A program made the position numbers and the translations under genes. DNA of 58,865 bases, from contig CAIXPS010000213.1 of assembly GCA_903921365.1 (NCBI GenBank), positions 1-58,865 on the forward strand, written 5' to 3'. The stretch comes from an uncultured bacterium (lineage in GTDB: Bacteria > Chloroflexota > Anaerolineae > J036 > Brachytrichaceae). The notes below the pieces were generated by a model. The model was not told the DNA's origin and ran no database searches. It worked only from the letters and a program-made list of their open reading frames with translations. This document shows, piece by piece, positions 22,251 to 46,060 of the stretch; position 1 is the first letter of the stretch; the number at the start of each line of letters is the position of its first letter.

Positions 22251-22406
22251 GGCGACCCTTGCGCAGGATCGCCTGATCGATCGCGCAGACACTGAGTGGC
22301 GCACCAAACACTCCTCTTTTTAGTCCCTATAGCGGATATTTCATCTTGAAGCATTTGGGCGCATAAATATCCTGAAGTTGTGATCGTAATTCAGGAGATT
22401 AACTTG

Positions 22407-25400
22407 ATGAGTGTTTCCGTATTTGCACGCCTGGGGGCGCCACGTGCTGCTATCTATATCATGTCAATTGCCAGCATTCTTCTGAGCAGTTGCCAGACTG
22501 TTAGTCCAGAACCCATCGCTGTGCTTAACGCTGCGGACGCGCCGCCAGTCATGCTTCAGCGCGCGCCTGATCCAGCGCCAGAAAAGCCAGCGTCAGAGAC
22601 ATCCAAAACCGTCTCGATTGCTGCGAATACCACAGCGCCGCTGGTTTATGCGCCGCCCGACCCGCGGGGTATTCCCGCCGATCTGAAAGGCCTTACTGAA
22701 CTTATCGATGAGCGCACCGATCGCAGCGCCACGTTTAAGAACCCAAACGGCGGATTCACCTCAATCCTCTCGGCGGAATCGATGCACTACCTCGATAGTC
22801 GGGGCCGCTGGCAGGTCATTGACCCCAGCTTCCAACCCGCTGAAAACGGTTATGTGGTGGAGCAAAACTCGATTAGAAGCAAGGTGGGACAGACCAAAGC
22901 CACCATTGCTGCCGTTGCCGGCAGCACCGCGCTGAACTGGCAGACCACGGAAATAGGGATTACCCGTGGCGTGTCATACACAACGGTCGCGAGCGCGCTG
23001 GGGAACACATCGACGCCTGCGGAGATACGCGACGATGGCCGAACTTTACATTATGCTGGCGCCTGGTCTGACACCGCAATTGCCGAAGAAATCACCAGCG
23101 CACCCGACCAACTGGAGCAGGCGCTCGTCCTTGAGAAAGCGCCGGTTGGGCTGCAGAATGCGATGCCAGATGCATCGCAAGATGCATCCGCCACGGCTTA
23201 CCTCGACATAAAAGCGACGCTGAAGATGCTGCCGAACACTTTCTTGTGGGCAGACGGTCGCCTTCAAACTGGCGATTTCCACACGCGCGGCGCGATTGAA
23301 CTGCGCAGCGGCGCGATGGGCGCCGCTGGCACAGCCAATCAGGTTGCTGCCCGTTTTGAGCCGGCGGTCGTGTTTGAGCAAAAAGATCATGACCAAACCG
23401 TCTCAGCCGAATATATCGTAACATCCGCGCCGGTAGGCAATTGGACGCCACAGCCCAACAGCGGACCCGCGCCGCAGATATGGACGGTAACCATCCGCAC
23501 GCCACTCGCATGGTGGCAGGACCAACGCCGGAGATATCCGGTCGTCATCGACCCAACCGTTCGCGTGTTGCAGTCAACCGGCAACGGCACTGGCGGGCTC
23601 GCATGGGTTGGAGCTGGATCACTCTATCCTGGCTTTGTGAGTTGCAGGCAGCAGATATGCGATACGCAGGACAACAATCTCCGTTATGGAGCCATGCTGA
23701 TTGGGTCCGAGTTCATTGCGCCAATATACAAGGGTTATCTTCAGTTTAACCAGATGCCCTGGCTGATGGCGCGCAACCCGATCTCGGTCAGTTCCGCCAC
23801 CCTGGAAATGCAACCGTCCGGGTTGATCATGCCGGGGTATAAATTCGGCGACGACCCGGGGTGGGCTGAGAACAAAACTCAAAAGGACGTGCACCTTTAC
23901 GGGTTACCATGCCCGGACTTGTGCAACGGGTTCACGCTGACCCAGACCATGAATACGTGGAACTGGGGCAACACCCCGGCGCCCGGCGGGGCAAGTCAGG
24001 TCAACTTCGGTGTGGCACAGGTGTCGGCGCCGGCGTATAAAGGGCCCAACAAAGGAGTGCCTGGGCTGCCTGGCAAATGGGATGTGACCAATTTTGTCCG
24101 GTCGTGGGTGCAGAAAACCCCGCGACCAGCGGACGGCCCGATGTTCATGGCGCAGGCCGTCGGCGTCCCATGCCTGATTCACGGCGACGACGCGGCTAAT
24201 GATCCCAACGGGGTCGTTTTCTCCGAAGACGACAATTCTGCGATCCCCAGTTGCACGCGCGTGATCGTGTGGCCAAACGATGTGCGCCTGCGCATTTCGT
24301 ACGACGCGATGACGCTGAACGTTGGGCAGAATCTGGTCAACAAGCCCGGTCTGCCGAGTTATAACAAGGGTGTTTTTGACAATGGCAGCGGGGGCGACAT
24401 GGTGCATCAGTATGCGCTTGCGCCCAACGCCAATGGCACGCACTGGCGCGGTGTGGCAGTGCGCCCGAATTCCGACCTCGCTCCCGCGTCACAGGGTCAA
24501 ACCGGCATCGGCCTGAATATGTACTCGAATCCAGCCGACGATAACACCGCCGTCGAACTGGGGCGCGACATGGGCAGCGCAAATGTGTCTGACGACACCG
24601 AGTTTGTTTTCATAGACGACTACAACCAGACGTTTCCAGCGGTCGCAAGCGCGGCTTTGAAGGTAAACATCCCATCGTCCAAGACCGGGAATGATTACCC
24701 CACGGATGGAGATCGCAACTATCGAATCCACTACACCATCGCCGGGGGATGGAACATCAGTTACTCGACGCCGACGACGCAAGTGATGTTTTTTAACTCC
24801 GGCAGCTTGCTGCAGATGAGTGAGTTTCCATTGATTCACGGCGACAACGTGCTCATTTCGATCACCGTTCCGTCAACGGTCAGCTTGGATCTTGCGCTGG
24901 TTAACCCGACCAGTTACAACAGCGCCACCACAAAGGACGCGGTGCGATCCAAGAGCAATCAAGCTGGCATGATCACGTCACAAGGTTTCCACAAGCGCGT
25001 CACCGCCACCGGCGTCAGCTACAGCTATGTCGCCAGTTTCCTTCCGGACGACGGCGTTTATATGCTGGCGTTTATCAATAAAGGCCGCCCTACGCGCGAC
25101 CCTTTCAGACCCACCGAAGCGCAAAGCTTCCCGGTGACCGTCAACATTTATCGCTGCCCATTCGGAACAATCGCCACTGCGCGATACGGTTGCCAACCTA
25201 TCCTGGCGCCTCAACCTGCCACGCCAAAAAACACGGCGCTCGGGCTGGATGTCTACAGCGAGGGCGGGTTTGCCGCTATCACCGGCGGCTGGTGCACCAA
25301 GGGTGAAAGCGCCGGCACGCCAATCATCGGCCCATCGACACAGAATCGGTGGGTTTCAGTCGCACAAGGTTCAGTGTGTTTTGATGGACAGACGCTTTCG

Positions 25401-28400
25401 ACCACCATCGAGAGCGGTGTGCTCATGATCACACAGACCAGTGTGTTTACACAGGATGCCCGCATCCACGGCGTTGGCCCGTTTGGCTTCAGTTACGGCA
25501 CGACGGCGCTGTACCCGCTGCTGTCGGGCGAACCCACTGGTGTGGTGACGCGCACAGTCGCATCCGCGCCGCTCAACCTATTGCAGCCCACGACGAGCAC
25601 ATTGCGCAATGTGGATCCGTTCAAACAGAACTGGGCAAGCGTGACGACGCACCTCTTCGATCAGATCAGTATGGCCGATGTCAAGATGTACGGCAGCGAC
25701 ATCATCACGACGCCGGTGGCAATCGATTCGAGCGCCCTGCCGACTGTCACAAGCTGGTTGATCCCGTGGAACATTTACGCAGATGAAGCCGCTGACCCGC
25801 ACCTGCTTTACACATTTAACTACCACATGACCCAGGCGCCGTTGTTTCCGACGCCGATGAATCTGTCGAGCATGGGTCTGCGTATTCTGGGGCCGACTGC
25901 CAATGCGGTCACAATCCTTGACTCTGACAAACAAGGCAACGGGCCGGAAGCAAACCAGTTCCGCGCCAGCCAGGCTAAGATCACACAGCCGGCCAAACTC
26001 GGCGGCGCCAGCCAGAATGTTGAGGCGCTGGTATTACCACCGGGCTTTTCGCGCTACTCGCCGCCCAATGACCTCGTCAACGCGAACTGCGGGCCGGGCG
26101 AGAGTTGTCTCGACATCTACGATACCGGCTATGTATGGAAAGGCGCGGTGACGCCCTGGGTGCTGCCTGATGTTCACGTCACGGACGCGGCGAAGACGGT
26201 GATGATGAATAGCCCGGGGCATCTCAATATCTTCAGCGCGGATCACCCCGCCAGTCATGCGCCGGCTGCCCCTGCGGATGTCAACGAATCGTTCAGTTTC
26301 GACACATTCAGCGTCAAGGTATCGATCCGTGAGTCAATCTGCTATGCCGGCGGCCCCAAAGTCACGATCATCCATGGCGAAGGCTTTATCGCACTGCCGA
26401 TAATAGGCGGCGATGGCAGCGATGGCGCCTCAGGGCCGCCTTCCGTATCGGTTGACTTCACGTTGTGCGACTCGAAACTGCACGAAGCCAGCCTGTCGCT
26501 CAATATCCACCCGGCCGATATTCCGGTGGGAGCTTCCGGTCTGGGTGTGTACATGATTGGCGGTCAGATCGTGGTCAACCCGGACTACACCGTCGTCACG
26601 TTCACCCTTGGCTTTGAAACGATGGACAAGGAGCTGCTCACCGGCGGCGAGGGCGACGTCATCATCGACACACGCGGAATGTTCGAGCTGTTTGCAAAAG
26701 CTACGATCATCTCAGTGATCGATGTCAGCCTGACGCTACAGATCGCCTGGAACCCGCTGGATGTGCTGCTCGACGCTGAAGCATCGTGCTGCGGCGGCTG
26801 GATCACGGGTCGCGTGATGCTGGAGGGATGGATCGGCCAGGGCTGGCAACACAAGTACAAGTGGCTGCCCGATAACAACAAGTTCCACTTTGCAGGGGAA
26901 ATATCCGCCTATCTCAAGATACCCAAAGGCGACATCTCAAGTTTCCTTGACCTTCCGCCGTTCAACTTCGAACTGGGGCTGAAAGTAGCCTTCGGCGAGT
27001 TCTGCGCGAACGATAAGTGCAGCGATACGACCTCGGGCATGTCGATCGTGCTCGACATCATGAGCATTAACATAGGCCTGTTCGTCGACAAGCATGGCCC
27101 GGCGTTCATTCTCGGCTCAGACAGCCATGTGCTCATCAACGAGTACCAGGGACAATCGCAACTGCTGATGATGAGCCCGGTCGGGAGTCTCGCTCAGGAC
27201 GCGTCGTCCGCTTCGTCTCCATCGCGGTGGTTGCTCCCGCAGGGATTGACGTTCACATTCCCGATCACCGTGCTTGGCGGATTGCAACTCCTGCTCAAGC
27301 CGACGTTCAATACACCTGTAGATGACTGGCAACCAGTGACTTCGGGCAACGCCTGTACGGCGGGGAACCATACGATCACCTGCCCGTTCACGCTCAGCCA
27401 GAGCGCCGGTCGCGCCATGTTCCTGACACATTGGCTGAACGGCGACTTGAAAGTTTCGCTGATCCGACCGGACAACACAGTGATCACTGTCGCCAATGCC
27501 AGCAGCTATAACGTGACTGTTACGCAGGTCATCAGCCCGCTGTACAAAGAACTGGCTTACGCGGTGCACCCAACGAGCACCGGGCAGTCTCTGATATCGG
27601 GCGTATGGAAACTCAAACTGGACAACGTGGGCATCTTCGCCAACCCGGCGATCACGCGCAACAACTGGAGCCTGCTGTTCTTCAGCGATGCAGCGGCGCC
27701 CACACTGACCTGGAATTCACCCGTGACGATGGGCGTGACGCCCGATGGCAATGGCGATGTGGCCTTGCAGTGGAGTGCGGCGCGCGCCGGCATGCCTCTG
27801 ACGCCATCAACGCGGCTGGAGTTGTTCTTTACCCCTGTGGTCAGCAAGCCTTTAGACTCGAACGAAATGGCCGGCACGCTGATCGTCGGTCAGTACACTG
27901 CCACCCTTGGGAGTTACGTGTGGAACACCGGCGGGCTGAAATCAGGAGAATATGCCGTTGGCGCGCGTATCGACGATCACCTGCACGGTAACGGAGCGGT
28001 AGTCTTCTGGGCTCCGGGAAGCGTGGTAATCAACGACACGACGCCCCCACCCGCTCCCACCCTGCTTGGCACAAAGACGCAGGCAAACGGCCTGGTTGTG
28101 ATCTGGAAGAAGGATATGACGCCCGATCTATCAGGGTACCTGGTGGACTACAACATCTACGACTGGGACGAATCGACCATTCTGACGCGCACCCGACGGG
28201 TATTGGCACATTCATGGAACATCAGCCCGACGTTCGAGCTGCCTGTGGAGCGTGTCCGTCTGGGCGGCATGCTGACGTCGCTCTATAACGGCGCGACGCC
28301 AACGACGACCGTATGCCTGCGTTCCTATGACGCCAGCGGTAACATCAGCCTGCCAAGCTGTAATACGATCACGGTGACGCTGCCGGGCGGCGCGACGCTC

Positions 28401-29366
28401 TTCCCGGTGCGGCGCATTGCGGCACAGATGCTTGATATTGGCGCGCTCGCGCCGCTGCTCGGCGCAAGGGTCAGCTATGCGCCTTCAGACGCGCCGGGGG
28501 CCGTGGGCTACCTGTTGAGTTACCGGCCGATTGGTTGTATCCTGCCAAACGTGAAGACACTCGCGGATCAAGGGCCATCGGCCATCGATATCGGCAACCC
28601 CCTATCGCACACATTCACACTGACCGGGCTGACCATTGGGCAACGCTATGAGTATGGCATCAACCCCTATGATGCCATAGGCAACGTTGGCCCAGGTGTG
28701 ACGGTGGACGCCGTTTTCGTTAATCCGGCCGACGCAAACACAAACGGCTTGCCGGATCAGTGGGAGGCGCTCTATGGCGTCTCCGACCCAAACGCCGATC
28801 CCGACCACGATGGGTTGACCAACTTGCAGGAGTATCTGTTCGGCACAGATCCGAACAACGCGTACAGCGGCGGCGGCAAGCACTCAGATGGCGAGGTCAT
28901 GGCAGCTGGTCTGCAGGCGTGCAGCCCGCTTGATCCCGGTCCGCATCAGACGCCCAAATTGACGTTGGTCGGCGACAATACTGCCAAGTTCACTGTGGCG
29001 ATCAATAGCACTAATGCCCCATCCCAGACGATCAAAATCATCAATACGGGCGCTGACATTCTGGATTGGATGGCAACGCCGTCCGATGCCTGGATCGTGC
29101 TGGACAAGACATCCGGTGGACTCATGGATGGCTCAGTTAAGATCGGGGTCAATCCGAACGGTCTGCCGCCAGGACATTACAAGGGCAAGGTAACACTCAA
29201 CAACACGTATGTCGTGCCACCACCGCCCGCACTCGCGGCGAATTCACCCAGCGCAGCTGCACTCGCCCCCGGCGACATCATCACCGAAACCGCTGAGGTG
29301 GCAGTTGAGCTGAACGTTCTACCCGCAAAGGAGTTCACACTGTATATGCCGATAGCATCAAAGTGA
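22407..29366 (+). CDS. Giant multidomain surface lipoprotein, 2319 aa
   Basis: ATG 22407 has AGGAG nine bases upstream. The signal peptide ends in a lipobox (LLSSC, Cys 29). The next 400 residues resemble the leader of RHS/DNRLRE-type secreted proteins (TSILSAESMHYLD, RYPVVIDPTVRVLQS). A DNRLRE-like carbohydrate- or wall-binding domain follows (DNNLRYG, WDVTNFVRSWVQ). A long central part is beta-rich and of no family I recognise. Fibronectin-like repeats come near 1850-2090, then thrombospondin type 3-like calcium sites (about 2110-2150: DANTNGLPDQWEALYG, DPDHDGLTNLQEY). A BACON-like sandwich follows and the protein ends LYMPIASK, a tail style seen on secreted Chloroflexota proteins. It is probably an adhesion or polymer-binding protein. 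It stands alone, with a terminator after it. Confidence 0.8.
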   Translation: MSVSVFARLGAPRAAIYIMSIASILLSSCQTVSPEPIAVLNAADAPPVMLQRAPDPAPEKPASETSKTVSIAANTTAPLVYAPPDPRGIPADLKGLTELIDERTDRSATFKNPNGGFTSILSAESMHYLDSRGRWQVIDPSFQPAENGYVVEQNSIRSKVGQTKATIAAVAGSTALNWQTTEIGITRGVSYTTVASALGNTSTPAEIRDDGRTLHYAGAWSDTAIAEEITSAPDQLEQALVLEKAPVGLQNAMPDASQDASATAYLDIKATLKMLPNTFLWADGRLQTGDFHTRGAIELRSGAMGAAGTANQVAARFEPAVVFEQKDHDQTVSAEYIVTSAPVGNWTPQPNSGPAPQIWTVTIRTPLAWWQDQRRRYPVVIDPTVRVLQSTGNGTGGLAWVGAGSLYPGFVSCRQQICDTQDNNLRYGAMLIGSEFIAPIYKGYLQFNQMPWLMARNPISVSSATLEMQPSGLIMPGYKFGDDPGWAENKTQKDVHLYGLPCPDLCNGFTLTQTMNTWNWGNTPAPGGASQVNFGVAQVSAPAYKGPNKGVPGLPGKWDVTNFVRSWVQKTPRPADGPMFMAQAVGVPCLIHGDDAANDPNGVVFSEDDNSAIPSCTRVIVWPNDVRLRISYDAMTLNVGQNLVNKPGLPSYNKGVFDNGSGGDMVHQYALAPNANGTHWRGVAVRPNSDLAPASQGQTGIGLNMYSNPADDNTAVELGRDMGSANVSDDTEFVFIDDYNQTFPAVASAALKVNIPSSKTGNDYPTDGDRNYRIHYTIAGGWNISYSTPTTQVMFFNSGSLLQMSEFPLIHGDNVLISITVPSTVSLDLALVNPTSYNSATTKDAVRSKSNQAGMITSQGFHKRVTATGVSYSYVASFLPDDGVYMLAFINKGRPTRDPFRPTEAQSFPVTVNIYRCPFGTIATARYGCQPILAPQPATPKNTALGLDVYSEGGFAAITGGWCTKGESAGTPIIGPSTQNRWVSVAQGSVCFDGQTLSTTIESGVLMITQTSVFTQDARIHGVGPFGFSYGTTALYPLLSGEPTGVVTRTVASAPLNLLQPTTSTLRNVDPFKQNWASVTTHLFDQISMADVKMYGSDIITTPVAIDSSALPTVTSWLIPWNIYADEAADPHLLYTFNYHMTQAPLFPTPMNLSSMGLRILGPTANAVTILDSDKQGNGPEANQFRASQAKITQPAKLGGASQNVEALVLPPGFSRYSPPNDLVNANCGPGESCLDIYDTGYVWKGAVTPWVLPDVHVTDAAKTVMMNSPGHLNIFSADHPASHAPAAPADVNESFSFDTFSVKVSIRESICYAGGPKVTIIHGEGFIALPIIGGDGSDGASGPPSVSVDFTLCDSKLHEASLSLNIHPADIPVGASGLGVYMIGGQIVVNPDYTVVTFTLGFETMDKELLTGGEGDVIIDTRGMFELFAKATIISVIDVSLTLQIAWNPLDVLLDAEASCCGGWITGRVMLEGWIGQGWQHKYKWLPDNNKFHFAGEISAYLKIPKGDISSFLDLPPFNFELGLKVAFGEFCANDKCSDTTSGMSIVLDIMSINIGLFVDKHGPAFILGSDSHVLINEYQGQSQLLMMSPVGSLAQDASSASSPSRWLLPQGLTFTFPITVLGGLQLLLKPTFNTPVDDWQPVTSGNACTAGNHTITCPFTLSQSAGRAMFLTHWLNGDLKVSLIRPDNTVITVANASSYNVTVTQVISPLYKELAYAVHPTSTGQSLISGVWKLKLDNVGIFANPAITRNNWSLLFFSDAAAPTLTWNSPVTMGVTPDGNGDVALQWSAARAGMPLTPSTRLELFFTPVVSKPLDSNEMAGTLIVGQYTATLGSYVWNTGGLKSGEYAVGARIDDHLHGNGAVVFWAPGSVVINDTTPPPAPTLLGTKTQANGLVVIWKKDMTPDLSGYLVDYNIYDWDESTILTRTRRVLAHSWNISPTFELPVERVRLGGMLTSLYNGATPTTTVCLRSYDASGNISLPSCNTITVTLPGGATLFPVRRIAAQMLDIGALAPLLGARVSYAPSDAPGAVGYLLSYRPIGCILPNVKTLADQGPSAIDIGNPLSHTFTLTGLTIGQRYEYGINPYDAIGNVGPGVTVDAVFVNPADANTNGLPDQWEALYGVSDPNADPDHDGLTNLQEYLFGTDPNNAYSGGGKHSDGEVMAAGLQACSPLDPGPHQTPKLTLVGDNTAKFTVAINSTNAPSQTIKIINTGADILDWMATPSDAWIVLDKTSGGLMDGSVKIGVNPNGLPPGHYKGKVTLNNTYVVPPPPALAANSPSAAALAPGDIITETAEVAVELNVLPAKEFTLYMPIASK

Positions 29367-29438: not shown

Positions 29439-30536
29439 TTACGGGGTGAACCTGTATCCACGACCGGGGGCGGTGTGGATATGACTCGGCACAGACGGAT
29501 CAGGCTCGATTTTCTCGCGCAAGCGGCGCACCAACTGCGCCAGGCTGTCATCACGCACCCCACGCTCGAAGATGTGATCCTCCGGCCACACGGCGCGAAT
29601 CAGATCATCCTTCTCGCACACGCCATCGGGGTGTGCCTGCAGATAGGTCAGCAACAGATTTTCTTTGGCGGTTAGTCGCGACATGTCAAAGCGGGCCGGG
29701 CGTCCAACCTGTAACAGCGCCAGACCCTCCAACCGTGCGCGGCGCAGTTCCTCATCGGTCGGGTTGTCATTCAGGAACTCTTCCAATCGCGACTTCACCG
29801 CAGGGTGTGAAGCGATCGCGCCCACATCCAGCGATGCGCCGGCAGCGTAAGCCTCGCACGCGGCGCGCAGGAAGGATGGATAACCGCGCGTCAGGGCAAT
29901 CAACCCATCGGCAACGGGACGATCCCATGTCAACCCTTTGCGTGCAGCATAACGCGCCACACTCCATTGAGCGTCGCTCTCACTCAAAATGCCCAACCCC
30001 AGAATATGCGCGTAAAACAGCTCAGCCAGTTCCGAATGGTCGCGCATCGGCCGGCGTGTGGCGACCACGTAGGTAAGCGTGTATTTGTGCGCATCGCGCA
30101 AGGCGCGCATGTTGTCGAAGATCGCCGCGGATGCCTGTGTCGCGACGCCGTCGAATCGATCCAGCAACAAGCAGATCGACGCGCCCCACTCCCGCTTGCG
30201 CTGTTCAACCACGGCATCCAGCAGTGTCCACTCGTCATCCGTCGCGTCGGTGCTGCCAAGATGACGACGGATCAGGCGGAAGAAGGCGTCAGAGGTGTAT
30301 TCACCACTATGGGCGCCACCAGTGGCGCCCATAGTGGCGTTGATACGATTGCAGTCTACTAGCACGAACCGGCATGTGTCCGACGTGATGCGATTGGCAA
30401 TGAACCCGAGCAGGTTGCTCTTGCCAGAACCGCTAAGACCGGCCACGGCAGTACACTCACCGCTTTCTGCAGCAGAGACTATCGCGCGCACTTCATCGTT
30501 GCGGTAATCAGATGGATAGGTGTCCCATACAGACAT
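29439..30536 (-). CDS. P-loop ATPase with C-terminal PhoB/OmpR-type winged helix
   Basis: 365 aa from ATG 30536, ten bases after GGTGA. Walker A GLSGSGKS is at residues 33-40; LVDCNRI and CLLLDRFDG (Walker B) follow. The last 80 residues form a winged helix of PhoB/OmpR type (LTAKENLLLTYLQAHPDG, DDLIRAVW, QLVRRLREKIEPDP, IHTAPGRGYRF). It has no receiver domain, so ATP or a bound ligand rather than phosphorylation should control DNA binding. It is divergent from the kinase/DUF4349/vWA cluster and is the best candidate to bind the 11-bp-spaced TCA boxes there. Oddities: a heptanucleotide array 35 bases before the start and a perfect palindrome inside the gene. Confidence 0.82.
   Translation of the reverse strand: MSVWDTYPSDYRNDEVRAIVSAAESGECTAVAGLSGSGKSNLLGFIANRITSDTCRFVLVDCNRINATMGATGGAHSGEYTSDAFFRLIRRHLGSTDATDDEWTLLDAVVEQRKREWGASICLLLDRFDGVATQASAAIFDNMRALRDAHKYTLTYVVATRRPMRDHSELAELFYAHILGLGILSESDAQWSVARYAARKGLTWDRPVADGLIALTRGYPSFLRAACEAYAAGASLDVGAIASHPAVKSRLEEFLNDNPTDEELRRARLEGLALLQVGRPARFDMSRLTAKENLLLTYLQAHPDGVCEKDDLIRAVWPEDHIFERGVRDDSLAQLVRRLREKIEPDPSVPSHIHTAPGRGYRFTP
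30304..30337. repeat. Perfect 16-bp inverted repeat inside the ATPase gene
   Basis: Arms 30304-30319 and 30322-30337 are exact reverse complements with a two-base centre. They encode part of the low-complexity stretch NATMGATGGAHSGEY just after the second strand of the ATPase domain. It is not at a gene end and has no T run, so it is not a terminator. Confidence 0.85.
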
Positions 30537-30570
30537 AAATGTTTTCACCAAATGGTTGTGGGAGATATTG

Positions 30571-30626
30571 AGATTAGAGATTAGAGATTGGAGATTGGAG
30601 ATTGGAGATTGGAGATTGGAGATTGG
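30571..30626. repeat. Heptanucleotide tandem array upstream of the ATPase gene
   Basis: Eight uninterrupted 7-bp units: two AGATTAG followed by six AGATTGG. The array lies 35-90 bases upstream of the ATPase start codon, between it and the probable promoter (minus-strand TATACT at 30650-30655). Changes in copy number would alter the leader, or the frame of any upstream start, by 7 bp per unit. Confidence 0.9.
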
Positions 30627-30716
30627 ATAACGCGCATATGTCCGGGTTGAGTATACTATTTGATTGAGGAACACAATCAAGTTCAGCGGCGTCTTTTCAT
30701 TGAGGAGGTAACTGGC

Positions 30717-30866
30717 TTGTCCCGAAGAATGCGGACGATCGTGGCGGTGATGGGCGTAGCAATAGTGCTGATGTCATTGTTATTCTTTGCCTACGCGAAA
30801 TGGCCGGGAAGTGCGACCCGCGAGCAGTATCGCCTGGAGCCAACAGTGTTTGTGCAGCCACGATGA
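30717..30866 (+). CDS. Small single-pass membrane protein, 49 aa
   Basis: TTG 30717 lies eight bases after AGGAGG (30703-30708). The product begins with basic residues (SRRMR), has one membrane helix (TIVAVMGVAIVLMSLLFFAYA) and a short tail with charged residues. A longer frame back to 30660 lacks a ribosome site. The next gene starts 17 bases downstream, so it leads the kinase-lipoprotein operon. No family is recognised. Confidence 0.55.
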   Translation: MSRRMRTIVAVMGVAIVLMSLLFFAYAKWPGSATREQYRLEPTVFVQPR

Positions 30867-30882
30867 CCACGATGGCGATGAT

Positions 30883-33228
30883 ATGAACACGCGCCGATCA
30901 CTCCTCCAGGTTGTGCTTGGGATCGCATGTGCCCTGATAGTCGCGGCGTGCGGTGGGGCGCCATCAGCCGCGCCAATTCAAACACAGAAAGCCAGCGAGC
31001 CGACGGCTGCGCCTGCTGCCACAAAAGCGCCCGAACCGACAAGCACGCTGCGCCCCACATCTGCCCCGACGCGCTCAAGTGCGCCGACAACGGCTACACC
31101 TGCCGTCACTAGAGCGCTTGAACCCACTTCCGCCTCGGCAGGCGTGAGTAGGGCGACAGCAACCCTTGCGGCAGCAACAACAGCGCCAGCCGCATCCGAA
31201 GCCACTGGCGTCACCGCAGTCCCAACCAACCGAGTCCCTGCGACGCCAACTGCCGCTGCAACCGAGCTTCCGAGTCAGGTTCCCGCCGAACCTTCTAAAG
31301 ATCAAGTAACGGCAACCGTTGTCGCGACGCCGGAGGTTACGGCTGTTGCGACGCCGCCTGAAGCGCCCCTTCCAGTAGAGAATCGCCTGGTCGAGTTGGA
31401 GTGGCCGGAACAGATGCGCCTGGGCGATTCCGACATCGCGCGCATCGCATTGATTCCCTCGCAAGAGGGCTACACCGTGACCACCGAGTTTGCCGAACAC
31501 CAGGCTGTCACCCGCACAGTGCAAGTTCAGCGACCGACCGGATATGACGTGTCCGCAGTCGGACGATTGGATGCTGCCGGGTTTGACCAGTCGCCTACTG
31601 GCGATCAGGCGCAAGCCCTGCCAGCCGGGGCGCCAGTAACATGGCGATGGACGCTCACGCCGCGCACTGCCGGTCAGCACAGGATAGTCGTGAGCCTGTT
31701 GCTGCGCTGGACGCCGTTACAGGGCGCTGCCGGCGCGGCGCGTGAATCAACGATTTTCTCGAAAGGGCTGAGCGTCAACGTCACATCGTTACTCGGTATG
31801 ACAACGTCCCAGAGCGAGACCACTGGCCTGATGGGTCTGGTGCTGGGCAGCGGATTCGGCGCCTTCGCGCTCGCATCACGACGGCGCCCCTTGCGCGCCA
31901 TCCTGCAATCGCAGACGCCAAATGCAGCGCTGATCATCGAGCCCCGCCCCGGGTTGGTAATCCACCCGGAAGAAGCACAGTTATTGAAAACTCTGTTCCG
32001 CCGATACGCGCGACTGGTGGTCGAGAGTGAATTCCTGTCTGGCTATTCCGGCGCGCGCACGCTCCTGGCTCTGCCCATTCGCACAGACGGCCGAGCCGAT
32101 GCTTTTACCATTGCCAAGATCGGTGATCGGGAGTCGATCCGGCGCGAGTTTGAAAACTACGAGACATACGTAAAAGACACGCTCCCACCGATCACCGCCC
32201 GCATCCAGGAACCGCCGGTGATGATTTCACCCCGCGCAACTGCCCAGCGCCGTCGGCAGGGTGACCGAAGCCAAACCAGTGACATGCCGCGCGCCGTGTT
32301 GCGGTATACCTTCATCGGTGAACCGGGGCGCAACCCGATCAGCTTGCGGGAAGCCTTGCTGGCCGCGCCAGACCCGGCGTTGCTCAACAAGCTGTTTTCA
32401 ACCTTTGGTCCAAACTGGTGGATGCAGCGTCGACCGTATATGTTCCGCCTTACGCAGGAGTACGACCGCGTCCTGCCAGCGCATTACGTCATTGAGCCGG
32501 CCAGAGGCAAAGCCGGAGTCCTCGACGCCCAATCTGTCAGCGCCCCGCGGTCGTGGAGCGCACTCGCCGCGCGCGGCGATCTGGTCACCCTGCGCGGATT
32601 CAGCGTCATTGAGACGCGCATGGATGGCAAAAGCTTATCGCTCACAGGCGCAGCGTCGCCCGGACGACCCGCGCTGCGGGTGCGGTGGTTGAGCACCGAA
32701 CCGCCAAACGGCGCGGTCGGGCGCGTGGTGAGTGACCGCGCCACACTCTTACGCGAGTATGTGGCTGGCTTCGACCTGTGCAGTTTACCCGATCCGCTGC
32801 CCAGAGTGCAATCTTGGCTGGATGAGAGCGTGCGCGGGTCACAATCGACCATCCATGGCGATCTGAACCTGGAGAACGTCCTGGTTGGGCCGGGTGGATT
32901 TGTATGGTTGATCGACTTTGCGCAGACGCGCGATGGGCATGTGCTGTATGACTTCGCACATCTCGAAGCTGAGATCATTGCGCAGGTCATCGCCAGTCAC
33001 GTCAAGTCGCCGGAAGAATACCTGGATATCCTGCGCGCGAACGACCACCCTCTACTCACCGCGCTCAACACTATCGCCGCTAACTGTCTCGCCAACCCTG
33101 CGCAACCCAGGGAATACCAACTGGCTTTGTGTCTGGCCTGCATCGGCGCGCTCAAGTTCAACAACCTGAAGCCCTCGGCCAGACATCTGCTCTACCTCAC
33201 CGCCGCGCACCTCGGCCAGACGCTTTAA
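30883..33228 (+). CDS. Lipoprotein-anchored, membrane-spanning APH/TCAD9-like kinase
   Basis: 781 aa from ATG 30883, which has only a weak ribosome site and may rely on coupling to the small gene before it. A lipobox VAAC (Cys 23) is followed by about 150 residues of Ala/Pro/Thr linker and a beta-rich extracellular domain (VENRLVELEWPEQM to GLSVNV). One membrane helix lies near 314-333, followed by RRR. The rest should be cytoplasmic. It has the features of an aminoglycoside-phosphotransferase-type kinase: SGYSGARTLL loop, Lys 412 in FTIAKIGD, an acidic helix REFENYE, catalytic HGDLNLENV (His 658) and metal-binding IDF near 676. The layout fits the TCAD9 domain known from vWA-linked ternary systems. 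The substrate is unknown. The vWA gene lies two genes downstream. Confidence 0.72.
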   Translation: MNTRRSLLQVVLGIACALIVAACGGAPSAAPIQTQKASEPTAAPAATKAPEPTSTLRPTSAPTRSSAPTTATPAVTRALEPTSASAGVSRATATLAAATTAPAASEATGVTAVPTNRVPATPTAAATELPSQVPAEPSKDQVTATVVATPEVTAVATPPEAPLPVENRLVELEWPEQMRLGDSDIARIALIPSQEGYTVTTEFAEHQAVTRTVQVQRPTGYDVSAVGRLDAAGFDQSPTGDQAQALPAGAPVTWRWTLTPRTAGQHRIVVSLLLRWTPLQGAAGAARESTIFSKGLSVNVTSLLGMTTSQSETTGLMGLVLGSGFGAFALASRRRPLRAILQSQTPNAALIIEPRPGLVIHPEEAQLLKTLFRRYARLVVESEFLSGYSGARTLLALPIRTDGRADAFTIAKIGDRESIRREFENYETYVKDTLPPITARIQEPPVMISPRATAQRRRQGDRSQTSDMPRAVLRYTFIGEPGRNPISLREALLAAPDPALLNKLFSTFGPNWWMQRRPYMFRLTQEYDRVLPAHYVIEPARGKAGVLDAQSVSAPRSWSALAARGDLVTLRGFSVIETRMDGKSLSLTGAASPGRPALRVRWLSTEPPNGAVGRVVSDRATLLREYVAGFDLCSLPDPLPRVQSWLDESVRGSQSTIHGDLNLENVLVGPGGFVWLIDFAQTRDGHVLYDFAHLEAEIIAQVIASHVKSPEEYLDILRANDHPLLTALNTIAANCLANPAQPREYQLALCLACIGALKFNNLKPSARHLLYLTAAHLGQTL

Positions 33229-33268
33229 CCGTAGCCGCATTACTGTCACGAACCGCGCGCGTTTGCTT

Positions 33269-33323
33269 TATCAACACGTTGTCATCCGTTTATCAAGACT
33301 TGCGATCCGCTGCCCCTTACAGT
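33269..33323 (+). promoter_or_regulatory. Promoter of DUF4349 gene with three TCA boxes at 11-bp steps
   Basis: TCA occurs at 33271, 33282 and 33293 in the frame T(A/G)TCA, followed by a -10-like TACAGT at 33318-33323. The promoter before the vWA gene has the same elements at exactly the same spacing (offset 790). Triplet 11-bp repeats are the geometry of PhoB/OmpR-family binding sites. No good -35 is present, as expected for an activated promoter. Confidence 0.6.
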
Positions 33324-33391
33324 CGTATTTGGGCATCATAGGGCCTTTGCCCTGCCCCATCAATACGTTCAGAACCTGTCAGGAGGTAGTC

Positions 33392-34051
33392 ATGGATCGG
33401 AAAACGCTACTCACAGCCTTCGCCGCGGTCGGGATCTTTATGCTCACTGCTTGCAGCAGCGCGGCGCCAAAACAAATCGCATCCTCTCCAGCCGAACAAC
33501 CAGCGGAACCACGTTCCATTGCGCGCGATCCCTCGCATCAGGGTGAGGTAATCCCATACAACGCCGATATCGAGTTAACCGTCGACGATGTCGATACCGC
33601 TGCCGGGAAAGTAACGGTGCTGGCATATGACCTGGGCGGAGCTATTTCGAGTTCGCACTCGTGGTTCCAGGATGGCCAGAAAAGAATCGACATGGAGCTT
33701 TCTATCCCGGCTGACCAGTTTGACAACCTGCGACGCAAGTTGCTTGACATCGGCACACTCAACTCAGCCCAGATATTGAACGAAGTGGTCAACCCGGACG
33801 ATATCCGGGGACGCACAACACTGGCGACTATACATCTACAGCCGGCAACTTTCACCATCGGAGGTCTTGATGGGGCTTGGAGTCCGGTGCGAACATTCTC
33901 GAGCGCCTTCAACGTCGTGGCATCGATTTTCCGCGTGGTTGTGGATATTGCGATCTGGATCGTTGTCGTACTCGGCCCATTTGCCATCATTGCGCTCGGA
34001 GTGCGATTCCTGTTGCGACGTTCGCGTAAGTCAAATTCGCCGCCGGTATGA
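33392..34051 (+). CDS. DUF4349-type membrane lipoprotein
   Basis: 219 aa from ATG 33392, five bases after AGGAGG; the open frame runs further upstream without a ribosome site. Lipobox LTAC gives lipidation at Cys 21. The extracellular domain matches DUF4349 in layout: VDDVDTAAGKVTVLAYDLGG, then SIPADQFDNLRRKLLDIG, with the alternating helical pattern after it. A C-terminal helix (IAIWIVVVLGPFAIIALGVRFL) and a basic tail put the end in the cytoplasm. DUF4349 proteins have no settled function. It has its own TCA-box promoter, nearly identical to that of the vWA gene, so the two are likely co-regulated. Confidence 0.82.
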   Translation: MDRKTLLTAFAAVGIFMLTACSSAAPKQIASSPAEQPAEPRSIARDPSHQGEVIPYNADIELTVDDVDTAAGKVTVLAYDLGGAISSSHSWFQDGQKRIDMELSIPADQFDNLRRKLLDIGTLNSAQILNEVVNPDDIRGRTTLATIHLQPATFTIGGLDGAWSPVRTFSSAFNVVASIFRVVVDIAIWIVVVLGPFAIIALGVRFLLRRSRKSNSPPV

Positions 34052-34058
34052 CATTGGG

Positions 34059-34113
34059 TGTCAACCCTTTATCACCGGAATATCAAGCCAAACCTGCCTG
34101 CGCTCCCTACACT
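34059..34113 (+). promoter_or_regulatory. Promoter of vWA gene with three TCA boxes at 11-bp steps
   Basis: TCA at 34061, 34072 and 34083, and TACACT at 34108-34113, repeat the order and spacing seen at 33271-33323 to the base. About half of the remaining positions also match, including TATCAAG at 34081-34087. The leader to the ATG at 34157 is about 40 bases. Confidence 0.6.
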
Positions 34114-34156
34114 GTAAGCGCACAGTTCAATAACAGTTCAATAAAGGAGGACTGCC

Positions 34157-35908
34157 ATGAATAAGAAACACATCATCTCGATTTTCCCGTTGTTTGCCAT
34201 GTTACTCACGGGGTGCGGCGGGGCTGCCATGCCCGCACCCTCAGCCGCGCCATCAGCGCCCGGACGCCCCGCGTCTACTGCGCCGCGCGCACTCAACCCG
34301 ACGAGTGCGCCTGCCGCGACATCAGCTCCAGCTGCCACTAAATCGCAGGCGCCATCTCAGTCGCCAAGGACAACAGCCACGGCAAAGACCGTAAACCCCG
34401 CGGTAGTGCCCACACCCGCCTCCGCCCCAGCGCTTTTGGCCACAGCCCCCGCCCAGGCTGAGGCCGGACGCGTGGCGCCGATTCCGACCGCGGCAAGCAG
34501 TGCGGGCAAGGATGTGACGCGAGAGCTTCCACCCACCGCCACGCCGCCCAGCGACAGCACATTCAAGGACTATGGCGTCAACCCGTTCGTCGAAACTTCC
34601 CGCGACCACCTTTCCACATTCGGATTGGATGTGGACACCGCTTCATATGCAATCACGCGGCGGTACCTGACGGACGGCACACTGCCGCCGATGGAAGCCG
34701 TGCGCGCCGAGGAGTTTATCAACTACTTTAAGCAGGATTATGCGAAGCCGGCCAATGTGGCCTTCGGCATCTACGCCGATGGCGCGCCTTCGCCCTTCCA
34801 TAATGACGGCAGCGTCCTCGTGCGTTTCGGCGTGCAAGGCTACGATGTGCCCGACAGCCAGCGCAAACCGGCCATGCTTACGTTCATCATTGACGTGTCC
34901 GGCTCGATGGCCGATGACAACAAACTGGAGATGGTTAAGAACTCGTTGCGCCTGCTCGTCGAGCGCTTGCGCCGCAGCGACCAGGTCGCCATTGCCGCCT
35001 TCACCACCGACGCGTGGGTGGTGCTGGATCCCACCAGCGGCGCCGACAAGCGCGCGATCCTGAATGCCATCGACACGCTCAGGCCGATGAACAGCACCAA
35101 CGTGGATGCCGGCTTGCGCGCAGGTTATAAACTCGCCAGCAAGATGTTCAACAAGGACGCAATCAATCGCGTGATCCTATGCTCCGACGGCGTCGCCAAC
35201 ACGGGTTCGACCGACACCAATACGCTGATCGACTTCGTGCGCGGTTACGGTGAAGGCGGCATCATGCTCACAACCGTGGGTGTGGGCATGGGCACGTATA
35301 ACGATGTGCTGCTGGAGCAACTGGCCGACAAGGGCAACGGATTTTACGCTTATGTGGATACGCAGGATGAAGCCGCCAAGCTGTTTCTGGATCGCCTGAC
35401 TGGCACGCTGCAGACCATCGCCATCGACGCCAAGGTGCAGGTCGATTTCAACGCCGATGTCGTGTCCCGTTACCGGCTGATTGGTTACGAGAACCGCGCG
35501 ATTGCCGACCAGGATTTCCGCAACAACAACGTGGCTGCGGGCGAGATGGGCGCAGGCCACAGCGCAACCGCGCTTTATGCCGTGCAACTAAAGCCAAACA
35601 CACCGGGGCGCATCGCGACCGTACAACTGCGCTGGCAGGATCCGACCTCGCGCCAGGTGAAAGAAATTAACGGCAATTTCAACACGTTTGATCTGGCTGC
35701 GCGCTATGAGGATGCATCGCCTCGTTACCAGATGTCGGCCACAGTGGCGCAGTTCGCTGAGATACTACGGCAGAGCCCGTACGCTGGAAATGGCGGGCTG
35801 GGGCAGTTGCGACGCTACGCCGATCACGTGGCGCAAGCCCTGCCCGATGACGCGGATGTGGCGGAGTTCGCGCAACTGGTGGCGCGGGCAAGCGAGTTTG
35901 ACCGCTAA
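34157..35908 (+). CDS. vWA-domain lipoprotein (YfbK-like)
   Basis: 583 aa from ATG 34157 after AAAGGAGG. Lipobox LLTGC gives lipidation at Cys 20, followed by a Pro/Ala/Thr linker to about residue 130. YGVNPFVETSRDHLSTFGLDVD and VRAEEFINYF are the signature N-terminal region of YfbK-type vWA proteins. The vWA domain has an intact MIDAS (D246-x-S248-x-S250 in IIDVSGSM, later a Thr and CSDG). The C-terminal part is the family-specific DUF3520-like domain. It should bind a protein partner through a metal ion at the cell surface. In the neighbourhood are a kinase, a DUF4349 protein and an ATPase regulator. Confidence 0.88.
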   Translation: MNKKHIISIFPLFAMLLTGCGGAAMPAPSAAPSAPGRPASTAPRALNPTSAPAATSAPAATKSQAPSQSPRTTATAKTVNPAVVPTPASAPALLATAPAQAEAGRVAPIPTAASSAGKDVTRELPPTATPPSDSTFKDYGVNPFVETSRDHLSTFGLDVDTASYAITRRYLTDGTLPPMEAVRAEEFINYFKQDYAKPANVAFGIYADGAPSPFHNDGSVLVRFGVQGYDVPDSQRKPAMLTFIIDVSGSMADDNKLEMVKNSLRLLVERLRRSDQVAIAAFTTDAWVVLDPTSGADKRAILNAIDTLRPMNSTNVDAGLRAGYKLASKMFNKDAINRVILCSDGVANTGSTDTNTLIDFVRGYGEGGIMLTTVGVGMGTYNDVLLEQLADKGNGFYAYVDTQDEAAKLFLDRLTGTLQTIAIDAKVQVDFNADVVSRYRLIGYENRAIADQDFRNNNVAAGEMGAGHSATALYAVQLKPNTPGRIATVQLRWQDPTSRQVKEINGNFNTFDLAARYEDASPRYQMSATVAQFAEILRQSPYAGNGGLGQLRRYADHVAQALPDDADVAEFAQLVARASEFDR

Positions 35909-39785: not shown

Positions 39786-40706
39786 ATGGCCACTCTTCGC
39801 TTCCAGCCGCAGGTCTATCACAACACGCTTGGGCCGCACACCCCGGTCGCGCATGTTAGCGACGGCGACACAATCATCACGACGACGATCGATGCCTTCG
39901 GCAAGGACGAGAACGATCGGCAGGTTGCCGCGCGCGGCAATCCACAGACCGGGCCGTTTTACGTCGATGGCGCAGAACCCGGAGATACGCTCGCGGTGTC
40001 ACTCGACCGGCTATATCCGAACCGCGACATCGGGTATACCAGCACGGTTCTCGCGCCCAATGTGGTTGACCCGGACTTTGCGCGCGAATTGCCAGAGCCG
40101 CGAATGGCGCGCTGGCAGATCGACAGAGCCAGGGGAACCGCCACACTCATTGAGCCAATCGAACGACTGGGGCAGTTCACACTGCCGCTATCGCCAATGC
40201 TGGGCTGTTTCGGAGTCTGCCCTCCGGGCGGTCAGGCCATCTCAACCGCAACCGCCGGGACACATGGCGGGAACATGGACTATCGCGGCTTCAAGAGCGG
40301 GACGACCGTGTACTTCCCAGTATTCGCGCCGGGCGCACTGCTCTTCGTTGGCGATGGGCACGCGACCCAGGGCGACGGGGAAATCAGCGGCACCGGTATC
40401 GAGATATCATTTGATGTGCAGGTGACCGTTCACGTCATCAAGACAACCGGCATCCGGTGGCCCCGGGGAGAAACGTCCGAGGCGATTTTTACCGTAGGCA
40501 ATGCGCGCCCGCTTGACCAGGCTTTGCAGCATGCCACAACAGAGATGTATCGCTGGTTGACGGATGATTACGGACTCGGTCCACGCGACATCGGCGTATT
40601 GCTGGGTCAGTGTGTCGAGTATGATTTGGGCAATGTATTCGATCCGGCCTATACCATGGTATGCAAACTGGCGAAGCACACACTGCCTGCGCGTGAACGT
40701 CTTTAA
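39786..40706 (+). CDS. Acetamidase/formamidase family protein
   Basis: 306 aa from ATG 39786 after AGGAGG. Motifs GPFYVDGAEPGDTLAVSL, MLGCFGVCPPGG, GTHGGNMDYRG, VYFPVFAPGALLFVGDGHA and QGDGEISGTGIE define the FmdA/AmdA family. These enzymes hydrolyse formamide or acetamide to ammonia and the acid; metal ligands lie in the THGGN and GDGH segments. It is probably co-transcribed with the oxidoreductase before it. It may supply ammonia from amides, including ones made by the oxidoreductase. Confidence 0.9.
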   Translation: MATLRFQPQVYHNTLGPHTPVAHVSDGDTIITTTIDAFGKDENDRQVAARGNPQTGPFYVDGAEPGDTLAVSLDRLYPNRDIGYTSTVLAPNVVDPDFARELPEPRMARWQIDRARGTATLIEPIERLGQFTLPLSPMLGCFGVCPPGGQAISTATAGTHGGNMDYRGFKSGTTVYFPVFAPGALLFVGDGHATQGDGEISGTGIEISFDVQVTVHVIKTTGIRWPRGETSEAIFTVGNARPLDQALQHATTEMYRWLTDDYGLGPRDIGVLLGQCVEYDLGNVFDPAYTMVCKLAKHTLPARERL

Positions 40707-40746
40707 ACGCCCCAAAAGCCATACGGGTAATTCTCAAGATTTCGAT

Positions 40747-42834
40747 ATGCAACTCCAACCCCACATGAACAAGAAACGCCAGACATCGCGTGACCGTCGA
40801 ACGTCTTTGCCAGGCACAGGCAAGCGCGCAGGCCCGATAGCGGCGCTGCTGCTCTTAGCGCTGCTGGTGATCACTTCCTTAACACCTGCAACACCGACCC
40901 GCGCCGAGAGCAAAACGCTGTTATGGAACCGTTTGGATAGCGACATTGCAGTACAGGGAAATGGCGACCTGCATGTGGTCGAGACAAACGTGATCGACTT
41001 TACAAGCGGGAGCTTCACGTTTGGTTATCGCGACATCAACCAGAGCCGCCTCACGGCTATCAAAGACATCCAGGTCACGCAGGACAACAAGCCGCTGAAA
41101 TTTGAGACCTCCGAGACGGACAGCGGCGACTTCCGAATCAAGTACTACTTCCCGGCAGCTCAGAACGAAGTCCGCGCGTTTAAGCTGGCCTACACGGTCA
41201 TTGGCGCCACGCGTTATTACACCAATGGCGATGTCATTTACTGGGCTCCGGTGTACGCAGCCCGGAATGGGTTCTCGGTGCAGGATTCCCGCACGACAGT
41301 CAAGTTGCCGATAGGCGCAACGGCGTTGCTCGCCGCCACTTTTGGCCCCACGGCCACTGTCACAGGGCAAGGCGAGAACCTCGTGGTCGCAGAAGCCAAA
41401 GAACCGATCCCAAGCGGAAAACAACTTGAGGTACTCGTCTCGATTCCACACGGCATCCTCACCGGAAGCGCGCCAGACTGGCAGGCGGCATACGACGTGG
41501 AACAACAAACGAAGGTGGCAAATCAGGGCTCTGGCTTTGGCTTGCTGCTCGTGGGCATGTTGTTAATCTTTGGTGGGCCGGCGCTCATTGTGTTCTTCTG
41601 GTTTAAACGTGGTCGCGATCCAAACGTCGGCCTGGTAGCAGAATATCTGAACGAGCCCCCGGCCGGGATTACGCCCGGTATGGCAGGGACGCTGGTGGAC
41701 GGCTCTGCCGACCTGCAGGACATGATCGCCACAGTGATCGACCTGGGCAGGCGCGGCCTGTTGACATTACAGGAGCAGGGCACAACGAACCCTGCTGGCG
41801 TGGTCGTGGCGCGAGACTATTTTGTCTCACGAGGGCCGAACTTCAAGTCTGTCAAACTCGCCGCGTATGAATCCAAGATGGTCGACGCGATGAGACTGAA
41901 TGAAGACAAGACGACCACTTTGTCAGCGATTCAGGGCAAACTGTACGCGCAAACCTCCACCATCAAAAGCGCCATGTACGATGAGCTGATACGCCTCGGC
42001 ATGTATTCCTATAACCCTGAAAGCTCGCGCAGCCGGTACACTTTATTTGGCGTCATCCTGTTGATCTTCGCATGCGTTATAGCCTGCGCTGCTTCTTTGT
42101 ATTCGACAGCCTACAGCGGGTACGAGCTTTGCCCTTCTGTCGGCATTGGCCTCAACGCCGTGATTCTGCTCTTTATCGCCAGCCGGATGCAGGCGCGCAC
42201 ACGCAAAGGGGCTGAAACAAAGATGCGCGTCGCGGCATTCAAGCGCTACCTGCAGAACATCGAGAAGTACACCGACATCAAAACCGCCAAAGACCTCTTT
42301 GACAAATACCTGCCTTTTGCTGTCGCATTCGGTCTGGATCGCAGTTGGATACAGAAGTTCACCGCCGTTCAGACCCCGACGCCAAGCTGGTATATCCCGT
42401 TTGACTTCGGGTCAATCAACAGCAGTAGCAGTAGCAGCAGGAGTAGAGGCAGTGTTGGAACAGGCGACGTCGTCAATGCAGGCGCAGCGTTTGCCAAGTC
42501 TGCAATCGGGGATGTCAGCGGCGCGGCAGTCGCGCCCGTCACGATGGATAGCATCAACGAGGGTCTCTCTTCGAGTCTTTCGGACGTCAACAAAGGGTTG
42601 ACCACCATGTTCACATCGGTAAGCGCATCGTTCCTCAACAAGCCGCTCAATGTCGGGAATGCCGTTGGCGCGGTTACCAATGTCGCCTCTACAGTATCGA
42701 GTGCATCCAGCAGCGGCGGCGCTGAGGCTGCCGAGGCGGGCGTGCAGATCGCCGGCGCCATCCTGGGCGCGGTGCTCGACATCGCTACCGGCGGCGGCGG
42801 GAGTTCGGGCGGTGGCGGCGGAGGGTTCGGTTGA
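40747..42834 (+). CDS. DUF2207 membrane protein, paralogue 1
   Basis: About 695 aa from ATG 40747 (ATG 40765 is also possible; neither has a clear ribosome site). A basic N-terminus and signal helix are followed by the DUF2207 extracytoplasmic domain (SKTLLWNRLDSDIAVQGNGD, FTFGYRDI). A membrane helix (GLLLVGMLLIFGGPALIVFF) leads to RGRDPNVGLVAEYLNEPPAG, the family signature, and a cytoplasmic part with two more helices near 1320-1500 bases in. The C-terminus is Ser-rich, then Gly-rich, ending GGGFG. Function of DUF2207 is unsettled; the context with an SPFH protein suggests membrane organisation. It is a tandem duplicate of the next gene. Confidence 0.85.
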   Translation: MQLQPHMNKKRQTSRDRRTSLPGTGKRAGPIAALLLLALLVITSLTPATPTRAESKTLLWNRLDSDIAVQGNGDLHVVETNVIDFTSGSFTFGYRDINQSRLTAIKDIQVTQDNKPLKFETSETDSGDFRIKYYFPAAQNEVRAFKLAYTVIGATRYYTNGDVIYWAPVYAARNGFSVQDSRTTVKLPIGATALLAATFGPTATVTGQGENLVVAEAKEPIPSGKQLEVLVSIPHGILTGSAPDWQAAYDVEQQTKVANQGSGFGLLLVGMLLIFGGPALIVFFWFKRGRDPNVGLVAEYLNEPPAGITPGMAGTLVDGSADLQDMIATVIDLGRRGLLTLQEQGTTNPAGVVVARDYFVSRGPNFKSVKLAAYESKMVDAMRLNEDKTTTLSAIQGKLYAQTSTIKSAMYDELIRLGMYSYNPESSRSRYTLFGVILLIFACVIACAASLYSTAYSGYELCPSVGIGLNAVILLFIASRMQARTRKGAETKMRVAAFKRYLQNIEKYTDIKTAKDLFDKYLPFAVAFGLDRSWIQKFTAVQTPTPSWYIPFDFGSINSSSSSSRSRGSVGTGDVVNAGAAFAKSAIGDVSGAAVAPVTMDSINEGLSSSLSDVNKGLTTMFTSVSASFLNKPLNVGNAVGAVTNVASTVSSASSSGGAEAAEAGVQIAGAILGAVLDIATGGGGSSGGGGGGFG

Positions 42835-42973
42835 AACGCACATGTCAGCCTGTTTTCGGTAAACAGTCAGGCGCACTATCAGGCGCCGTATCAAAGACAG
42901 TTAAAATACACCTATAGCACACCTATGGGAAATATTGAAACCTGCGCGGTGTGTGATGCAAAAGGATAAACAC

Positions 42974-44848: not shown

Positions 44849-44887
44849 CAGGGTATTTGTGATATTCATCTGACAAAGGAGTTGGCG

Positions 44888-45397
44888 ATGAGTCAAGGGA
44901 AAACAATCGGGTTAATTATGGCGGGCATTGGCGCGGCGGTTTTGCTGCTCGCGGCAATGTGGGCGCTCGTTTCTCCAATGGCCGCCGGAGCCAAGGTGTT
45001 GGCGGTCTTTTTCGGATTAATCATTTCCGCGCCTTTGATCGGAATAGGCATCTACACCTACAACAAGGGAAGCGCCGAAGCCGGCGAAGAGAAAGTCATC
45101 GCCAAAGAGCGCAAGCTCTTGAGCATGGTCATGACCCAGGGCAAGGTCAACATCGCGGAAGCTGCGCTGGAACTGCAGACCACGCGCGATGAGACGAAGC
45201 AGTTGATCTACGATCTGATCGGTAAGCAGCTCTTTACTGGCTACGTGAACTGGCAGGAAGGGGTGTTATTATCAGCAGATGCCTCCAAGATCAAGGAAGG
45301 CGGAAAGTGCCCGAAGTGTGGCGGGCAACTTGAGTTGGCGGGCAAGGGCATCATCAAATGCCCATTCTGCGGGTCTGAAGTGTTTATCAACCAGTAA
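44888..45397 (+). CDS. Membrane protein with winged-helix-like and zinc-ribbon domains
   Basis: 169 aa. ATG 44888 is six bases after AAGGAG; the TTG at 44882 would abut it. Two membrane helices lie at residues about 8-60. A helical winged-helix-like region follows (LLSMVMTQGKVNIAEAALEL, TRDETKQLIYDLI, GKQLFTGYVN). The C-terminus is a zinc ribbon, CPKCGG and CPFCGS. A membrane anchor plus zinc ribbon recalls YdjG of the B. subtilis ydjFGHI operon, which recruits an SPFH protein. The role here is inferred from order and domain types. Confidence 0.75.
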   Translation: MSQGKTIGLIMAGIGAAVLLLAAMWALVSPMAAGAKVLAVFFGLIISAPLIGIGIYTYNKGSAEAGEEKVIAKERKLLSMVMTQGKVNIAEAALELQTTRDETKQLIYDLIGKQLFTGYVNWQEGVLLSADASKIKEGGKCPKCGGQLELAGKGIIKCPFCGSEVFINQ

Positions 45398-45448
45398 AGT
45401 GTCAGTAGTTATCCGGAAAGTATCTATCCTAAAGATAGGGGGCAAGTG

Positions 45449-45967: not shown

Positions 45968-46060
45968 CACAAGTCTGATGAGACAGTGTTTTGGCGAGTT
46001 GGTTTCACTCGCTTGATGACATTAGGTTAACGTGTTTTGGATGGATCAGGAGTAAGAAAA

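Follow-up and report, generated by a model that had tools for sequence, protein, structure and literature searches.

Results

The DNA analysed here covers positions 1 to 58,865 of contig CAIXPS010000213.1 (assembly GCA_903921365.1) from an uncultured bacterium of the Brachytrichaceae (Chloroflexota, Anaerolineae), and this whole 58,865-bp stretch is called the window. Our subject is a locus at 29439–35908 in which a lipoprotein transmembrane kinase lies opposite an ATPase-winged-helix regulator; all five adjacent genes claimed there in a preliminary description are present. The minus-strand gene (29439–30536) encodes a 365-amino-acid (aa) P-loop ATPase of nSTAND1/AAA_16-like type with a C-terminal OmpR/PhoB-type winged helix, as recognised by Pfam and homologue alignment. 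A 192-bp divergent gap with probable promoters (30537–30728), examined by a shared-element scan across divergent gaps, leads into four plus-strand genes. These encode a tiny single-transmembrane (TM) protein of 45 aa (30729–30866, alternative start TTG at 30717), supported by alignment, gene order and the ratio of nonsynonymous to synonymous substitution (dN/dS); the 781-aa kinase (30883–33228), assigned from Pfam, AlphaFold, structure matches and alignment; and two products assigned with Pfam. The latter are a short DUF4349 lipoprotein of 219 aa with a C-terminal TM segment (33392–34051), an optional component that starts 163 bp after the kinase gene, and, after a further 105 bp, a YfbK-type von Willebrand factor A (vWA) lipoprotein of 583 aa (34157–35908), an optional neighbour. 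The three lipoproteins had been described as sharing similar low-complexity linkers. Sequence reading gives a lipobox in each (VAAC, LTAC and LTGC), but long Pro/Ala/Thr/Ser linkers are found only in the kinase and the vWA protein, that of the DUF4349 protein being short.

A scan of a genome collection yielded 12 Chloroflexota loci, most of which carry the label Anaerolineales or Anaerolineae, and whole-genome searches added more; the resulting set holds 18 distinct lipoprotein-kinase loci, window included (other loci are cited by L numbers and genomes by G numbers). The carriers are soil, sediment and water bacteria of the Anaerolineae type. In 17 of the 18 loci the gene for the tiny protein immediately precedes that for the kinase, in several with a 4-bp start/stop overlap, and it is missing only from L051 (G008). 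Of the 17 loci with a readable upstream flank, 13 (window, L072–L082 and L112) have the ATPase gene next to the kinase unit in divergent orientation, and L049, L051, L052 and L130 do not. Simple shared ancestry was rejected as the cause of the kept gene order, as median pairwise kinase identity across the 18 loci is 50%. Across 396 genomes from the class, 8 have the full-length lipoprotein kinase, 7 have a close ATPase and 6 have both; the ATPase is thus present in 6/8 kinase genomes versus 1/388 others (p = 4e-11; p = 3.5e-4 within the 28 genomes of the window's own family). All co-occurrence p-values given here are indicative, because the tests take no account of phylogeny and several of the genomes are in fragments. 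It is nearly certain, in our judgement, that the tiny membrane protein and the kinase, usually with the ATPase, form the core of a conserved functional unit.

This core is narrower than the five-gene theme first proposed, as DUF4349 and vWA genes occur in half or fewer of the loci. The proposed recurrence of the kinase, DUF4349, vWA and ATPase genes together in other genomes was borne out at L112, L075, L076 and L082, and at L071, where the contig stops short of the ATPase; L112, which comes from a different family within the class, reproduces the window order exactly and in full. Neither of the adverse outcomes named beforehand, loss of the neighbourhood or of the kinase catalytic residues in orthologues, was seen. 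In a separate observation (L051:7258-9381), the one kinase without the tiny protein instead has the end of a sigma-factor-like gene a short way ahead of it.

The kinase matches TCAD9 (PF19974) at 1.4e-30 (107 bits against a cut-off of 40) and APH at 9e-9; Pfam gave no Pkinase match, and structure comparison likewise places it in the TCAD9/APH fold. Its architecture comprises a lipobox cysteine (Cys23), a low-complexity linker, an immunoglobulin (Ig)-like beta-sandwich ectodomain (about 164–301), a TM helix (308–332) and a TCAD9/APH-fold kinase (342–781). In the AlphaFold model, mean predicted local distance difference test score (pLDDT) is 76.1, with the ectodomain and kinase mostly at 85–95, and the single TM helix at 308–332 is followed by RRR; the model fits a topology with the lipid anchor outside and the kinase domain inside. 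As a layout, the earlier suggestion of an outside-in lipoprotein kinase that has its own ATPase regulator is well supported. The kinase part resembles solved APH-fold enzymes at Z 13–17, namely LxmK, choline kinase, methylthioribose kinase, N-acetylhexosamine kinase and APH. Beta-sandwiches of the Ig-like/macroglobulin kind match the ectodomain of the L076 orthologue, with Z reaching about 10; this arrangement is widespread and gives little indication of the ligand. All 15 orthologues in the alignment keep Cys23 and the residues K412, E422, H658, D660 (HGD 658–660), N662, N665 and D678, and among all complete TCAD9 domains examined the catalytic aspartate is lost in one protein only, the second copy in L114. 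With a dN/dS of 0.10–0.13, the kinase is under strong purifying selection, and from its sequence it looks catalytically active.

The tiny protein has a basic N-terminus, one TM segment and an outside tail that ends in PTVFVQPR in the alignment, the family motif being PT[LV]F.PP. The 45-aa open reading frame (ORF) is considered a real gene because dN/dS is 0.16–0.28 in four independent pairs. The family was unrecognised by the libraries searched, and its profile gave strong matches (E < 1e-8) in just three of 175 genomes, always directly upstream of the kinase.

The window ATPase combines Trans_reg_C (1.5e-16) with nSTAND1 (3e-7)/AAA_16 in one protein. Its start is the ATG at 30536, as homologues begin at a conserved MSVWDxYP; a longer ORF (413 aa) is a read-through, its long N-terminal extension arising because reading back crosses a GGAGATT tandem repeat. 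Homologues at kinase loci share 41–62% identity with it, and the Walker A motif G-x-S-G-x-G-K-S-N and the winged-helix residues are invariant across an alignment of 15 homologues, the last Walker A residue in the window being the invariant serine (GKSN). No TPR was seen in the ATPase, and Pfam detected a two-component signature (HisKA/HATPase or receiver domain) in neither it nor the kinase.

The divergent gap holds a ATTATACT/AGTATAAT-like element that recurs in 12 of 13 divergent gaps (8-mer, at most one mismatch), against a maximum of 9 in 30 shuffled sets. The window copy is TATACT at 30652, and the shared element could represent overlapping -10 elements. A sigma-70 promoter scan returned chance-level sites only and did not pick up the shared element, so that it neither supports nor excludes it. 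The GGAGATT repeat (9.4 copies, 30561–30627) separates the start of the ATPase gene from the likely promoter and may be a phase-variable spacer.

The DUF4349 (PF14257) match in the window (5e-12, 46.1 bits against a cut-off of 27.7) covers profile positions 4–78 of 213 and lacks the middle of the domain, so that the protein appears to be a short version of it. The vWA protein matches vWF_A (PF12450; 92 bits), VWA (64 bits) and YfbK_C (PF12034; 125 bits), all above cut-offs, and has an intact metal-ion-dependent adhesion site (DVSGSM), a signal peptide with lipobox and no further domain. Of 14 loci with a usable downstream flank, 7 have DUF4349 near the kinase and 6 have vWA there; both are near in 6, with DUF4349 directly ahead of vWA every time, and other genes intervene at L075, L076 and L082. 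With the model used, no DUF4349 match was obtained at seven vWA loci that lie at a distance from the kinase. All 8 kinase genomes have a YfbK-type vWA gene, whether or not it is linked to the kinase, against 53/388 others (p = 2e-7; own family p = 7e-5). Co-occurrence of DUF4349 was dropped as evidence because the domain is present in 301/396 genomes of the class, and only its position is informative. DUF4349 and vWA are thus an optional extension of the core. At L079:12308-15887, the lipoprotein kinase is immediately followed by consecutive genes for a Ser/Thr kinase, a PP2C phosphatase and stand-alone vWA proteins.

Homologues of the winged-helix ATPase also adjoin other TCAD9 proteins, at L113, L114, L115, L127, L132, L138, L139 and L141, and were absent next to those at L116, L128 and L129. 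The partners include fusions of an N-terminal Ser/Thr kinase to TCAD9 (identified with a profile in L114 and by reading the sequence in L113 and L127), a receiver-TCAD9 fusion adjoining the ATPase-winged-helix gene (L132:5969-7618 and 7735-9090), and a TCAD9 kinase with C-terminal EAD7 right after that gene (L139:7078-9432). Because the pairing crosses architectures, the ATPase and TCAD9 domain are taken to act together whatever the input domain: they are a recurring couple that predates the lipoprotein kinase. At L124, L125, L126 and L053, a cytosolic TCAD9 kinase carries N-terminal Clp_N (ClpN) repeats (by profile in L124), and an FHA gene lies directly upstream of it at L124 and, by sequence reading, at L125 and L126. 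These FHA genes hint at protein phosphorylation, and the two genes are possibly a separate kinase-reader pair. Such loci lie amid amino-acid biosynthesis genes in some genomes.

The ectodomain and TM segment, with a lipobox and no kinase, form a stand-alone protein in many genomes of family f27. A small basic single-TM protein precedes it at L119–L121 and L122, and at L123 one open frame covers both. The simplest history would be that a two-subunit surface sensor is older and that the TCAD9 kinase was attached later in the window's lineage. By gene reading, without a profile, the kinase-free gene adjoins a likely nuo (complex I) operon at L117–L121, L131 and L054 (f27 and relatives), and at L119 and L121 it lies just upstream of a NuoA-like gene, a placement repeated in several genomes.

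Elsewhere in the window, a predicted 2328-aa lipoprotein without a confident Pfam domain (22380–29366) ends just ahead of the convergent ATPase gene, and 40564–47131 encodes two DUF2207 membrane proteins in tandem, with a zinc-ribbon and an SPFH/Band 7 protein further along.

Discussion

The conserved unit described here is undescribed, and a reasonable mechanism can be proposed for it; no earlier description of the layout was found in the open-access literature searched, most subscription journals lying outside that coverage. The Ig-like ectodomain may act jointly with the tiny protein, which is translated immediately ahead of it, in sensing a signal at the cell surface that would cross the single TM helix to the cytoplasmic TCAD9/APH-fold kinase. 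The kinase, or its phosphorylated product, would then control the partner ATPase, whose winged helix may bind the divergent promoter region and alter transcription, there at the least. In some lineages, the DUF4349 and vWA lipoproteins could serve the same pathway as accessory surface proteins on its input or output side, probably as ligand or wall/adhesion-side partners. A transmembrane signalling unit with signal flow from kinase to ATPase is, in our estimation, not far short of an even prospect. More tentatively, the unit may represent a new class of receptor kinase in bacteria, in which an APH-fold protein kinase with a lipid-anchored Ig-like sensor and its own tiny membrane subunit acts via a STAND-like ATPase-winged-helix transcription factor, the kinase having joined an older two-subunit sensor and the ATPase-TCAD9 pair being a general signalling module fitted to several input architectures.

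Several observations weigh against signalling from kinase to ATPase. Small molecules are the usual substrates of APH-fold enzymes. The genomes G005, G021 and G008 carry both a kinase and an ATPase gene without linkage between the two, G017 has the ATPase but no detected kinase, and several ATPase homologues (L133–L137) have no adjoining TCAD9 kinase. When the tiny protein and ectodomain were co-folded through the natural same-frame stop of L076, the conserved tail had a pLDDT below 50 and no docking was predicted. Furthermore, activation of AfsR, a regulator discussed below, is little affected by phosphorylation (PMC10936776).

Because most APH-fold enzymes have a small-molecule substrate, the leading rival is a kinase of a small molecule or envelope component (a sugar, a choline-like compound, a lipid or a cell-wall precursor), the production of which is switched by the ATPase regulator according to the state of the envelope, without a protein phosphorelay. 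The structural matches to metabolite kinases fit this proposal, as do the divergent regulator-enzyme layout, typical for locally acting regulators, and the envelope nature of the DUF4349 and vWA proteins. However, a metabolic kinase has no obvious need of a conserved ectodomain, lipid anchor and TM helix, the ectodomain also exists without a kinase, and the same ATPase family pairs with TCAD9 proteins fused to Ser/Thr kinase or receiver domains, which are signalling contexts; we consider this explanation unlikely. A different proposal concerns the extent of the unit: the tiny protein and kinase, with or without the ATPase, may be all of it, with DUF4349 and vWA as frequent unrelated passengers. 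This is compatible with the other explanations, and the intergenic gaps, the intervening genes, the limited linkage and the ubiquity of DUF4349 in the class argue for it. The presence of vWA in every kinase genome, even unlinked, and the constant order of DUF4349 ahead of vWA near the kinase but not at the seven distant vWA loci speak against it, and on balance we find it rather doubtful.

The unit could also be a variant of the MoxR-vWA systems, that is, an NTP-dependent conflict (anti-invader) system in which TCAD9 is a surface-triggered signalling or effector part and the ATPase a threshold switch. TCAD9 is listed with vWA-MoxR-VMAP systems (PMC10910872), the ATPase is STAND-like, and the ATPase-paired protein at L139 carries EAD7, an effector-associated domain of conflict systems, making it a possible bridge to them. 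Nevertheless, no MoxR/AAA_3 match was found among neighbouring genes scanned from 19.4 to 47.1 kb, a scan that did not take in every small ORF; the vWA protein is an exported YfbK-type lipoprotein rather than a cytosolic, effector-fused one; no effector domain is fused; no defence model matched a whole protein, weak PADLOC matches being confined to the P-loop region of the ATPase; and the kinase is under purifying selection, not diversification. Membership in the MoxR-vWA ternary systems is thus unsupported, and a conflict function of this kind seems improbable. The link to conflict systems drawn in the preliminary description depends on the TCAD9 name.

Should the kinase indeed phosphorylate its ATPase partner, an abundant phylum that has received little study would have a form of kinase-regulator signalling that belongs neither to the two-component systems nor to the receptor kinases of Hanks type. 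TCAD9 kinases, until now mostly a domain label associated with conflict systems, would then gain their first role in the cell. In addition, a conserved family of 45-aa membrane proteins is put on record, and two orphan envelope families, DUF4349 and YfbK-type vWA, gain testable partners.

When compared with known systems, the window kinase shares its domain family and an intact APH-type active site with TCAD9 (PF19974) kinases of conflict systems (PMC7159879, PMC10910872), but it is lipid-anchored and membrane-spanning, it has no effector fusion, its vWA neighbour is exported, and no MoxR was found in its vicinity; the term TCAD9 is not used in the eLife conflict-system paper. The vWA protein itself has the standard YfbK-type composition and is distinctive only in its link to the kinase. 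PASTA-type Ser/Thr kinases (PknB/PrkC) are single-pass receptor kinases with the sensor outside and the kinase inside. The window kinase has this topology too, but its order is reversed, with the sensor N-terminal and the kinase C-terminal, and it has a lipid anchor, an Ig-like ectodomain and an APH-fold kinase. There is also a likeness to AfsK/AfsR of Streptomyces, in which a kinase acts with a partner ATPase bearing an OmpR-type winged helix and the kinase gene lies in the same cluster. AfsK is a eukaryotic-type Ser/Thr kinase without a lipoprotein ectodomain of the window type. Its substrate AfsR, in which an OmpR-like DNA-binding domain is joined to a STAND ATPase, is phosphorylated by it at sites that include the last Walker A residue (PMC10936776). 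The window likewise has one protein in which a STAND-like ATPase is joined to a winged helix of OmpR type, but this winged helix is C-terminal, whereas AfsR has an N-terminal DNA-binding domain and TPR; the window pair is also divergent and accompanied by a tiny membrane protein. Membership in the AfsK/AfsR family is not claimed, because the kinase is not Hanks-type and the domain order of the regulator differs; the best reading, by analogy, is that the window pair may work like AfsK/AfsR with different parts.

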